Part shown: piece after piece, positions 1,759 through 60,064 of the stretch | How positions within the stretch are numbered: position 1 is the stretch's first letter | Layout of the letters: every line of letters starts with the position of its first letter | NCBI RefSeq assembly: GCF_003725535.1 | Contig: NZ_RJSF01000044.1 | Location: 383,361 to 447,360 of the forward strand | Origin: Nocardioides pocheonensis | GTDB lineage: Bacteria > Actinomycetota > Actinomycetes > Propionibacteriales > Nocardioidaceae | Length of the DNA stretch: 64,000 nt | Direction: 5' to 3' | The notes under the pieces: generated by a model | Told to the model about the DNA's origin: nothing | The model's input: only the letters and a program-made list of their open reading frames with translations | The model's database searches: none | Made by a program: the position numbers and the translations under genes

Positions 1759-3351
<1,593 letters not shown>

Positions 3352-57084: not shown

Positions 57085-57207
57085 CTGGAGGCACGTGCGA
57101 AGCCGTGCCCCCAGCAGAGGGGGCGTGGCCGGGTCCGGCGGCTGCTGGAGGCACGTGCGAAGCCGTGCCCCCAGCAGAGGGGGCGTGGCCGGGTCCGGCG
57201 GCTGCTG
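57074..57207. repeat. tRNA-end inverted repeat and 60-bp tandem duplication
   Basis: 57082-57141 and 57142-57201 are identical 60-bp units, followed by CTGCTG. Each unit contains a hairpin (CTGCTGGAGGCACG with CGTGCCCCCAGCAG, one mismatch) and the string CAGCAGAGGGGGCG, the reverse complement of the tRNA-Ser 3' end. Thus the tRNA tail (57074-57095) can fold onto 57104-57125 over 22 bp with a single mismatch. Possible transcription terminator that was duplicated, or remnant of an element using the tRNA end. Confidence 0.85.
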
Positions 57208-58357: not shown

Positions 58358-58447
58358 GGAGGTGTCGCCTAGTCCGGTCTATGGCGCCCGCCTGCTAAGC
58401 GGGTTGAGGGCAAACCCCTCTCGCGGGTTCAAATCCCGCCACCTCCG
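58358..58447 (+). tRNA. tRNA-Ser (GCU)
   Basis: 90 nt. Acceptor GGAGGTG / CACCTCC, anticodon stem-loop CCCGCCTGCTAAGCGGG with anticodon GCT, long variable arm, T-arm GCGGGTTCAAATCCCGC, discriminator G. No CCA encoded. Second tRNA-Ser within 1.4 kb. Confidence 0.95.
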
Positions 58448-58466
58448 CAGTGGTCTCGGGAGAGAT

Positions 58467-58537: not shown

Positions 58538-58579
58538 GAACTTGCATGAACTTGCAGGAAGGTGCAGTGCACGTTCATG
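58538..58579. promoter_or_regulatory. Palindromic operator with tandem half-sites before peptide gene
   Basis: CATGAACTTGCA (58545-58556) and TGCACGTTCATG (58568-58579) are inverted arms matching at 11 of 12 positions, separated by 11 bases. Overlapping it, GAACTTGCAT, GAACTTGCAG and GAAGGTGCAG run as three 10-bp direct units (58538-58567). This is a likely binding site for a dimeric, cooperatively binding regulator, 96 bp upstream of the small peptide start. The LuxR-type protein encoded at 59013-60038 is the natural candidate. Confidence 0.65.
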
Positions 58580-58674
58580 AGGCGCGATCTTCGTAGTGGG
58601 TTCCTGCGGGCTGGGCGAAACTTGAGTCACCGGCCGCATCCCCTGCGTGGTCGCAAGCAGAAGGAAGACCTCCG

Positions 58675-58827
58675 ATGAGCAAGTTCCAGCGCCTTGCCCG
58701 CCTTGCGGCGGGCGCCCTCCTGGCGACAGGCGTGTTCGCCAGCGCCGCCGCTGCACCCGCGAGTGCGGCCACCGACACGAGCAGCAACCACAAGGTGGTC
58801 ATGCTCGACACGGGATGGGGCGGCTGA
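58675..58827 (+). CDS. Small secreted peptide (50 aa), signalling-peptide candidate
   Basis: ATG at 58675 after AGAAGGAAGACC, a good ribosome-binding site. Signal peptide: MSKFQRLARLAAGALLATG followed by VFASAAAAPASAA, with a likely cleavage after Ala-Ser-Ala-Ala. The mature peptide is about 19 residues and starts near TDTSSN and ends KVVMLDTGWGG. Upstream lies a 35-bp palindrome, downstream a perfect 12-bp terminator hairpin, so it forms its own transcription unit. It faces a LuxR/TrmB-type regulator gene. Its size, signal and C-terminal aromatic/glycine end are like exported peptide signals; function is inference. It is too short for most gene callers. Confidence 0.75.
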   Translation: MSKFQRLARLAAGALLATGVFASAAAAPASAATDTSSNHKVVMLDTGWGG

Positions 58828-58914
58828 CCGACACACAACCACAGACGCGAGACGAGGACGCACGTCCCCCCCAGACAGTCCGTCGATGCCAACCCCCCGG
58901 CCCGTCTCGTGACC

Positions 58915-58945
58915 AAGGGCGGAGAGACCCCCACTCTCCGCCCTT
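58915..58945. terminator. Perfect hairpin terminator after peptide gene
   Basis: AAGGGCGGAGAG / CTCTCCGCCCTT, a 12-bp perfect stem with a seven-base loop, 87 bp downstream of the peptide stop and before the 3' end of the convergent regulator gene. It can act in both directions. Confidence 0.85.
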
Positions 58946-59012
58946 GTCATGTCCGGGACCCGTTCCTGACCTGACCAGCGGCAGTGATCGAGGAGCCGGG
59001 ACGACCCCCGAC

Positions 59013-60038
59013 TCAGTCCGGCTCGGACGCGGCGGCCGCCCGCTGCTCGTGACGCTCCCGCTCCTCCTGCCGGCCGATCGCGTAGCCGAGCTGGAAGCGG
59101 GTCTCGACGCCGTACTCCGCCTTGAGCGAGGCGACGTAGCCGGCGTAGGTGCGGGTGCTCACGCCCATCCGCTTGGCGCTGGCGTTGTCGCTGTGGCCCT
59201 CGACCAGCATCCGCACCGTCATGTTGTGCACGTCGTCGGCGACCTCGCGCTCGGTGTTGAGCTCGCGGTCGGTGAAGCCGCGGGCACGCTCCCAGTAGCG
59301 CTCGAAGATGTCGACCAGGTAGGCGACCAGGCCGGCGTCGTGGATCGCCAGCGCCACCTGGTAGCCCTCGACGCCGGGCACGATGGCGAGCCGCCGGTCG
59401 ACGACGATCAACCGGTTGAAGAACTCGTCGAGCGTGCGGACCTCGGCACCGTGCTTGATCACCTCCTCGACGTACTGCCGGGTGGCGACGCTGCGCCGGG
59501 CCGAGTGCTGGTAGAGGGTGCGCATCCGGAGGCCGCGCTGGAGCGCCCGCTTGTCGCGCTCGATCGCCTCGGCGAGCACGTCGGCGGGGCGGGCGCCGTC
59601 GGGCTGCGCGGTGAGCAGCTCGAACTCGGCGTCGCCGACGGCCGCGGTGAGGAACCGGTTGATGTTCGGCAGGCCGCGCAGCTCCACGATCGGCTGCTCG
59701 GACCGGGAGGTGCGCCGGTAGACCAGACCCAGCTCGGCGAAGGTGTTGGCCCAGTCGGTCGACTCGGCGAGCAGCTCGGCGGCGCGCTGGCCCATCGGGG
59801 AGACCACGCGGGACTGCACCGTGGCCGGGTCCACCGGCAGGTAGGAGTCGGTCGCGGGGTCGAAGGCGAGGAGGCCGAGGTCGACGAGGAAGGCGAACGC
59901 CTCGTGCTCCGGCGCGTCCTCGACGATGCGGGGGTCGTCCCCGCTGATGGCCCCCTCGAGCACGATCTTCTGGTACAGGTCACCTGCATGGGTCTGCAGG
60001 AGGCGACGGTGGGCAGCGCCGTACTCCGTGGGGGTCAC
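59013..60038 (-). CDS. LuxR/TrmB-type transcriptional regulator
   Basis: 341 residues. The N-terminal part (about 15-95) looks like a TrmB/winged-helix-like domain (QKIVLEGAISGDD, HEAFAFLVDLGLLAFDPATDSYLPVDP). The middle (about 130-250) is the sensor-like region with RQYVEEVIKHGAEVRTLDEFFNRLIVVDRRLAIVPGVEGYQVALAIHDAGLVAYLVDIFERYW. The C-terminal HTH is MLVEGHSDNASAKRMGVSTRTYAGYVASLKAEYGVETRFQLGYAIGR, a LuxR/NarL-type fold. Such regulators are expanded in actinobacteria. The GTG at 60038 has no ribosome-binding site and a -10-like AATAAT at 60046-60051 (minus strand), so it is probably leaderless. The small peptide encoded at 58675 is its likely partner. Confidence 0.85.
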   Translation of the reverse strand: MTPTEYGAAHRRLLQTHAGDLYQKIVLEGAISGDDPRIVEDAPEHEAFAFLVDLGLLAFDPATDSYLPVDPATVQSRVVSPMGQRAAELLAESTDWANTFAELGLVYRRTSRSEQPIVELRGLPNINRFLTAAVGDAEFELLTAQPDGARPADVLAEAIERDKRALQRGLRMRTLYQHSARRSVATRQYVEEVIKHGAEVRTLDEFFNRLIVVDRRLAIVPGVEGYQVALAIHDAGLVAYLVDIFERYWERARGFTDRELNTEREVADDVHNMTVRMLVEGHSDNASAKRMGVSTRTYAGYVASLKAEYGVETRFQLGYAIGRQEERERHEQRAAAASEPD

Positions 60039-60045
60039 CTGTCCG

Positions 60046-60064
60046 ATTATTCACAAACATGCAA
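60046..60064 (-). promoter_or_regulatory. -10 region of leaderless regulator gene
   Basis: Minus strand AATAAT at 60051-60046, seven bases before the GTG start. Further upstream lies TTGCATG (60063-60057), a string also found in the operator at 58538-58579, so the regulator may bind its own promoter. Confidence 0.4.

Follow-up and report, generated by a model that had tools for sequence, protein, structure and literature searches.

A Secreted-Looking D-x-x-W Peptide and Its Adjoining TrmB-LuxR Regulator: A Candidate One-Component Signalling Pair of Actinomycetota

Introduction

The window analysed here, a stretch of 64,000 nucleotides from the 4.9 Mb genome of Nocardioides pocheonensis (contig C43), harbours a small gene for a predicted secreted peptide that converges, across a gap of 185 bp, on a gene encoding a regulator composed of a TrmB-like winged helix, a PLD-like domain and a LuxR-type helix-turn-helix (HTH). 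The pairing of these two genes is confirmed as real and extends far more widely than first proposed. With a probability of about 0.7, they are read here as a one-component peptide-signalling pair, in which the peptide would be exported, processed and re-imported to bind the regulator, which would in turn control the promoter of the peptide gene. The features of the pair are as follows:

58675-58827, plus strand: precursor peptide gene, 50 residues, predicted secreted, MSKFQRLARLAAGALLATGVFASAAAAPASA followed by ATDTSSNHKVVMLDTGWGG (open reading frame (ORF) reading and peptide profile)
58675-58767, plus strand: predicted Sec signal peptide of 31 residues with an AxA cleavage site (by eye and hydropathy rule)
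58807-58818, plus strand: codons of the DTGW core, the conserved part of the mature peptide (peptide alignment and core count)
59013-60038, minus strand: TrmB-LuxR regulator, candidate peptide receptor, GTG start, 341 residues

The Peptide Gene and Its Pairing with the Regulator

A first-pass annotation of the window had proposed a 50-codon gene with a signal peptide, a mature tail of about 19 residues and a ribosome-binding site of its own, and these proposals are borne out by the reading of the ORF: the signal peptide and its cleavage site were called by eye and with a hydropathy rule, the mature part of about 19 residues ends with LDTGWGG, and an AAGGA-type site is seen by eye about 10 bases 5' of the start. 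When a single ORF rule is applied, 77 matches occur in 110 kb beside regulators versus 4 in 306 kb farther off, one of these four being a genuine but displaced peptide copy (L086); the same rule yields two matches among 852 segments of the 64-kb window, the peptide ORF being one of them. The 77 paired precursors measure 39-118 residues, two of them exceeding 100, and are judged signal-like by the hydropathy rule.

The regulator was found in 22 of the 24 genomes of the genus, and each of these 22 genomes possesses, convergent to it, a short ORF of secreted-looking type that contains D-[TS]-[GA]-W (mainly from six-frame listings). Conservation of the peptide end had been named beforehand as the check on which the proposal could fall, and DTGW-like cores do lie beside the regulator in all 22 genomes; of the proposed conserved end KVVMLDTGWGG, however, it is the core that is kept, the conserved unit being D-x-x-W, often in tandem. 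In a whole-genome search of the 24 genomes with a peptide profile, the locus is the best match in 21 of the 22 regulator-bearing genomes and the second best (E 2.9e-4) in the remaining one, G001. The best matches in the two regulator-less genomes, G011 (E 0.10) and G019 (E 0.0027), lie within long frames, as signal-peptide background would; regulator, operator and credible peptide are all absent from both, G011 being 75% complete. The profile was made from the same peptides it finds, so that the independent evidence consists of these absences and of the fact that no further strong copy turned up.

On a wider scale, the regulator was matched at E<=1e-10 in 215 of 294 genomes of the family (genus included) and in 139 of 393 genomes of the class (family included); at most five candidates were scored per genome in the class scan, and copy numbers are lower bounds. 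Among 39 loci picked by hand from other Nocardioidaceae, 37 possess a D-x-x-W ORF within 420 bp, while the remaining two correspond to L086, with such an ORF at 1.6 kb, and to L069, which is interrupted by a contig end. For 20 loci picked by hand from the class, the D-x-x-W ORF occurs within the same distance in 11, all among the 14 loci of the Streptomyces-like genus g44, which we infer from plasmid records to be Streptomyces, and in none of the six others. An additional 30 loci, taken from 25 genomes that belong mostly to other families of the class, showed no clear D-x-x-W precursor. The orientation is convergent at each of the 59 paired loci of Nocardioidaceae and divergent in all 18 other pairs, which means that the pairing either survived a rearrangement or arose twice.

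Side observations concern the copy number of the regulator. The Streptomyces-like loci L136-L140 consist of clusters of 3-5 regulators in mixed orientation with one D-x-x-W peptide gene seen; their extra regulators form a clade of their own with 14 members and are possible multi-receptor arrays. In addition, contig C1 of the one-contig genome G002 exhibits regulator matches at both ends, so that the gene probably spans the start of the record.

The D-x-x-W Core

Alignment of 18 peptides of the genus shows no variation at D, G and W and hardly any at T, and the mature part outside the core is unconserved. Among the 77 precursors, the core consists of DTGW (34), DTSW (9), DSGW (7), DTAW (7), DTTW (7), DSSW (3), DTVW (2) or DSTW (2), whereas DYQW, DPVW, DITW, DPGW and DVGW occur once each and one precursor is mixed. 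Two or more copies, up to a maximum of 9, are found in 37 of the 77 precursors, and in 36 of these 37 all copies are identical, versus a mean of 4 and a maximum of 11 in 2000 permutations, which points to the core as a unit on which selection acts. The cores vary, in contrast, from one precursor to another: their labels cluster on the regulator tree yet change at least 24 times (quick tree with one support measure). The first core directly follows an A-x-A-like site in 22 of the 77 precursors and in others is located at or near the chain end, or repeated. Residues 2 and 3 of the core likely represent an address code, and the wider set of sequences suggests that the code may extend beyond D-x-x-W.

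Structural Organization of the Regulator

Depending on the sequences included in the profile, distinct parts of the regulator are recognized. The profile built from the regulators of the genus gives a match to archaeal TrmBL2 (E 1.2e-7) but none to a LuxR HTH, while the profile to which Streptomyces, plasmid and phage relatives were added matches both TrmBL2 (E 1.8e-11) and LuxR/NarL-type HTHs (E 9.8e-8). The LuxR-type HTH of the window protein is accordingly assigned via this wider profile and the helices of the model, and not via a match of that protein by itself. The AlphaFold model, obtained with seven sequences in the alignment (predicted local distance difference test pLDDT 77, predicted TM-score pTM 0.48), matches TrmBL2, TrmB and PLD-family folds, the best fold match reaching E 5.2e-15. 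The LuxR/TrmB-type label of the first-pass annotation is supported, the TrmB part by sequence and fold and the LuxR-type HTH by the profile including the Streptomyces relatives. The parts of the regulator are located as follows:

59064-59255, minus strand: C-terminal HTH of the LuxR/NarL type, about residues 262-325 (profile with Streptomyces relatives and model helices)
59289-59696, minus strand: PLD-like domain, about residues 115-250, candidate ligand pocket (predicted model and fold matches)
60045-60064, minus strand: regulator promoter with a -10-like ATAATC close to the GTG start (leaderless-looking) and TTGCATG (letter check)

The PLD catalytic motif HxKxxxxD occurs in none of 106 regulators. 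Scans with Pfam and NCBIfam gave nothing above cut-off for the window regulator; for the four relatives scanned, Pfam GerE was above cut-off in L151 and L139 and below it in L132 and in gp29, the regulator of phage Chymera, whereas Pfam TrmB appeared in L151 alone, just under the cut-off. No tetratricopeptide repeat (TPR) was found in the regulator among the Pfam scans, the profile searches of the PDB or the fold matches shown. Pfam scanning of the window regulator and the four relatives listed no autoinducer-binding domain either, and no PHROGs family was obtained for four proteins. The motif TTGCATG, claimed earlier for the regulator promoter, is present there at 60058-60064 but is unconserved, TTGCA recurring in the nearest species alone, and its candidacy as an operator half-site in common with the peptide promoter was rejected on that account.

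The Candidate Operator of the Peptide Promoter

The promoter region of the peptide gene comprises two overlapping elements:

58545-58579, no strand: imperfect palindrome of 35 bp, CATGAACTTGCA/TGCACGTTCATG (repeat search and letter check)
58552-58571, plus strand: operator core TTGCAGGAAGGTGCAGTGCA, pattern YTGCANNAANNTGCANTGCA (motif comparison across loci)

The arms of the palindrome (58545-58556 and 58568-58579) are complementary at 11 of 12 positions (92%). It lies where it had been described, 95 bases before the peptide ATG rather than the 96 claimed, and, as had been suspected of a control element, it forms part of an element that is conserved in the peptide promoter, some 100 bp ahead of the start. 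Two of the three 10-bp direct units also described there, at 58538 and 58548, agree at 90%, but the third, at 58558, reaches just 7/10 by eye.

The motif TGCA-N-TGCA is found 90-163 bases 5' of the peptide start in 46 of the 59 paired Nocardioidaceae loci; within 220 bp before the start it occurs in 20 of 22 loci of the genus, 26 of 37 of the family and none of the 18 others. With at most one mismatch, YTGCANNAANNTGCANTGCA has 31 sites in the 24 genomes of the genus, 20 of which are located at the peptide locus (20 of 22 genomes) and 11 elsewhere, versus 13 for the reversed control pattern, while neither of the regulator-less genomes G011 and G019 contains any site. Since the pattern was derived from the promoters it scores, the independent points are its rarity elsewhere and its absence along with the regulator. 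As judged from this co-conservation of an element that is rare elsewhere at the stringency used and absent together with the regulator, the latter most probably controls the promoter of the peptide gene itself. Another element, GGAACATGATGCA, occurs unchanged at -97 to -113 in 10 of 18 Streptomyces and mobile-element loci, the best of 900 shuffles giving 2 mismatches; these ten loci are mutually related and Streptomyces-like. By eye, it resembles the Nocardioidaceae element TGCAGGAA..TGCA.TGCA and stands at a near-equal distance from the peptide start.

Looser patterns were also tried in search of a wider regulon and were set aside: the sites are numerous and exceed those of the reversed control, e.g., 15 versus 9 in the window's own genome for the short operator pattern with one mismatch and 66 versus 18 for the longer pattern with three, and the lists are too mixed to name targets. 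Among 10 off-target sites fetched, two operator-like sites stand about 100-130 bp 5' of genes for secreted-looking proteins, in L183 (G012, near 3000-3134) and L185 (G004, near 3000-3122), which is insufficient to claim them as targets.

Occurrence on Plasmids and in Phage Chymera

The regulator family occurs in 102 of 72,556 plasmid records, 97 of them from Streptomyces, and, out of 50,697 phage records, a clear match was obtained for a single phage, whose genome is represented by two records. In this phage, Chymera, gp30 contains ADPGWG and ends with NDPGWG, i.e., DPGW twice, is divergent to the regulator gp29, and both genes are located near those for the integrase, the immunity repressor and the excise protein. 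An excerpt of PMC10117723 describes Chymera as an integrated prophage of S. venezuelae, a laboratory strain. In 3 of 3 IMG/VR contigs found (90-95 kb), the regulator is divergent to a gene with repeats of DTAW or DTTW, and four circular plasmid records of 88-94 kb (L154, L207, L210, L211) display repeats of the same type and orientation. Among 17 plasmid loci opened, L201-L212 being judged by eye under a looser filter, a close divergent D-x-x-W ORF is seen in 7 (L151, L152, L154, L205, L207, L210, L211), L205 having a poor signal sequence; L201 has a D-x-x-W ORF on the same strand and L212 one at 642 bp. A viral scan using the Nocardioidaceae alignment gave no matches, and the weak phage match MT835605 (human faecal sample), obtained with a Streptomyces-type query, was discarded, no D-x-x-W ORF lying nearby.

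As a side observation, the peptide of L151, on a plasmid of S. globosus, contains three DTGWGAP cores, and this pair stands beside genes for a nonribosomal peptide synthetase (NRPS) and MbtH, a possible case of biosynthetic-cluster control.

Genomic Context

The surroundings of the pair include two further landmarks:

58914-58946, no strand: perfect 13-bp hairpin in the gap of the convergent pair, which probably serves as a terminator in both directions (repeat search and letter check)
58358-58448, plus strand: tRNA-Ser(GCT), syntenic landmark 5' of the peptide gene

The perfect terminator announced by the first-pass annotation is indeed a perfect 13-bp hairpin; it is devoid of a T-run, however, and was therefore missed by the consensus terminator scan. 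Of the 42 convergent intergenic stretches long enough for testing, 34 contain a hairpin whose perfect arm reaches at least 8, versus 2-6 in five simple shuffles. A same-strand tRNA-Ser is located within 700 bp 5' of the peptide gene in 43 of the 59 paired Nocardioidaceae loci. The three upstream neighbour proteins of the window are partly kept beside the pair in relatives, while each of the three downstream ones is found in 0 of 68 loci (short flanks). Just after a tRNA-Ser(TGA), at 57086-57206, a stretch of about 60 bp occurs, by eye, in two direct copies.

Proposed Mechanism and Alternative Explanations

The signalling reading would involve the following steps. As its signal peptide suggests, the precursor would be exported by Sec and trimmed outside the cell, which would leave a short peptide with the D-x-x-W core. 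This mature peptide would be taken back up, probably via an oligopeptide permease, five SBP_bac_5 matches (permease proteins) being present in the window's genome, and would be bound by the PLD-like domain of the adjoining regulator. The latter may then bind the TGCA-rich operator, to judge from their co-conservation, via the LuxR-type HTH, the winged HTH or both. The peptide-bound regulator would most likely activate the peptide promoter, the sign being uncertain, which would result in an autoinducing switch. For Chymera, an arbitrium-like role in lysogeny is a natural guess from the place of the pair near the integrase and the immunity repressor.

A number of observations weigh against this reading. 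Neither an importer nor a protease is linked to the pair, the peptide gene is the sole output in view, and the support for the pair as a signalling system consists of sequence and predicted structure; the TrmBL2 fold match is domain-wise, with global TM-scores of 0.33-0.45, and the patterns and profiles were made in part from the loci they score. Among 111 regulator stretches (pieces matched by the hidden Markov model), 34 have no D-x-x-W ORF within 420 bp; four of these (L077, L152, L157, L158) are second pieces of regulators that do have a partner, one is the contig-end locus L069 and one is L086, which leaves 28 truly devoid of a peptide ORF, including the clade of 14 array paralogues. Likewise, no D-x-x-W ORF was seen at 8 of the 17 plasmid loci. 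With respect to the cores, the plasmid precursors L207 and L210, outside the 77, mix TG and TA, so that the identity rule within a precursor is strong and not strict, and some related pairs exhibit Trp cores other than D-x-x-W, namely eight GTTW (L240), three GFDWG (L215) and two SWDWPK (L219). The test of covariation between core residues and regulator columns, which rested on 5-8 independent pairs and was underpowered, gave nothing surviving the number of columns tried. Finally, operators are seen just in Nocardioidaceae and in one Streptomyces-like clade: Chymera, L131, L151, L152, L154 and L156-L158 yielded none, and G004 and G008 have no YTGCANNAANNTGCANTGCA at the peptide locus with at most one mismatch.

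Among the alternatives, it is unlikely that the peptide is an effector, an antimicrobial or the precursor of a ribosomally synthesized and post-translationally modified peptide (RiPP), the regulator being merely a local controller that answers another ligand. Such a role would be suited by an operator that belongs to the peptide gene itself, by tandem Trp-containing cores, which could be a product, and by the location of one plasmid pair beside NRPS genes and of some others near biosynthetic genes. Against it, no recurring modification or immunity gene was seen in 18 annotated neighbourhoods (1 phage and 17 plasmids), whose tables were read by eye with no systematic search, and the downstream neighbours of the window do not accompany the pair in relatives, the upstream ones doing so in part. 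Moreover, four-residue cores that are identical within a precursor and switch between precursors suit an address code better than a toxin, and the mature parts outside the core are unconserved. Slightly less probable still is a peptide sensed at the cell surface by another protein, e.g., a membrane sensor, with the TrmB-LuxR regulator acting downstream or as a repressor without binding the peptide. Export without a linked importer would fit this scheme, Pfam describes TrmB as sugar-specific, and we are aware of no peptide that serves as ligand of a PLD-like domain. The pair recurs, however, in neighbourhoods that differ from each other, be they chromosomal, plasmid or phage, and no recurring membrane sensor was noticed there, none being specifically searched for. 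A signalling pair accounts better than either alternative for repeats that are identical and for two genes that travel as a unit. As to a chance assemblage, in which signal-like ORFs with a Trp would happen to adjoin a conserved regulator, GC-rich DNA abounds in short ORFs and the ORF finder is mechanical, but the control rates, the repeats, the joint loss and the operator make it extremely improbable, and conservation across genera and families already refutes it.

Comparison with Known Signalling Systems

The closest resemblance is with the RRNPP systems of Bacillota (Rap-Phr, PlcR-PapR, Rgg-SHP and others), which associate a small Sec-type propeptide with an adjacent cytosolic receptor of 250-500 residues and also occur on plasmids and phages. 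Here, the signal peptide is predicted, the 50-residue precursor of the window falls within the 10-100 residues of RRNPP propeptides (two of the 77 precursors exceed 100), and the regulator of 341 residues lies directly beside it. A passage of PMC10075063 gives RRNPP systems five defining features, and propeptides with internal duplications are reported there. In contrast, the present pair belongs to Actinomycetota, carries a DxxW core and possesses a TrmB/PLD-like regulator with a LuxR-type HTH in which no TPR was found; as the TPR receptor is lacking, the pair would work like RRNPP systems without being a member of them. Similarly, the arbitrium system of Bacillus phages (AimR-AimP-AimX) resembles the temperate phage Chymera, in which genes for a secreted-looking peptide and a regulator adjoin each other in the vicinity of those for the integrase and the repressor. 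AimR has TPRs according to a passage of PMC10075063, whereas Chymera gp29 matches the GerE/LuxR HTH alone (below cut-off) and no TPR family, and the Chymera peptide is divergent and tandem; a lysogeny role is here an analogy.

Archaeal TrmB and TrmBL2 share the winged HTH and the PLD-like domain with the regulator, as indicated by the above profile and fold matches, but the regulator differs from them by its extra C-terminal LuxR-type HTH and its linked secreted-looking peptide. The LuxR systems responding to acyl-homoserine lactones (AHLs) have the LuxR-type HTH in common with the pair, which shows no autoinducer-binding domain in Pfam scans, and the gamma-butyrolactone systems share cell-cell signalling in Streptomyces; the signal proposed here differs from both by being a genetically encoded peptide instead of a small molecule. 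As regards a RiPP cluster, no modification enzyme was seen to recur in the 18 annotated neighbourhoods, within the limits of the reading by eye given above.

Significance for Actinomycetota

To our knowledge, no peptide-receptor family with this type of receptor is known. The first-pass annotation had known of no described system of exactly this composition, and no paper on a peptide/TrmB-LuxR pair was found in open-access full text, of which the best results were considered where lists were long (20 of 38, 20 of 77, 20 of 10,033 and 12 of 9,350), subscription papers and most preprints lying outside this search. The signals of Actinomycetota are typically small molecules and those of Bacillota peptides, as stated in a part of PMC10075063; small molecules are also named as actinobacterial signals in an excerpt of PMC13220807, and cyclic or modified peptides are included among them in one of PMC4748050. 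The logic of peptide-based one-component signalling is already known, and it is the type of receptor that appears new. We lean slightly towards the broader view that TrmB-LuxR regulators represent an unrecognised class of intracellular peptide-pheromone receptors that evolved independently of RRNPP, and that a widespread peptide language of Actinomycetota, made of DxxW and related Trp-centred codes, would be carried by chromosomes as well as plasmids and by at least one temperate phage, the Streptomyces arrays being multi-receptor clusters. The whole looks like undescribed peptide signalling by actinobacteria and one of their viruses, and a pair with readable codes in Nocardioidaceae and Streptomyces would make cell-cell communication, silent biosynthetic clusters and phage lysogeny directly accessible to cheap tests with synthetic peptides.
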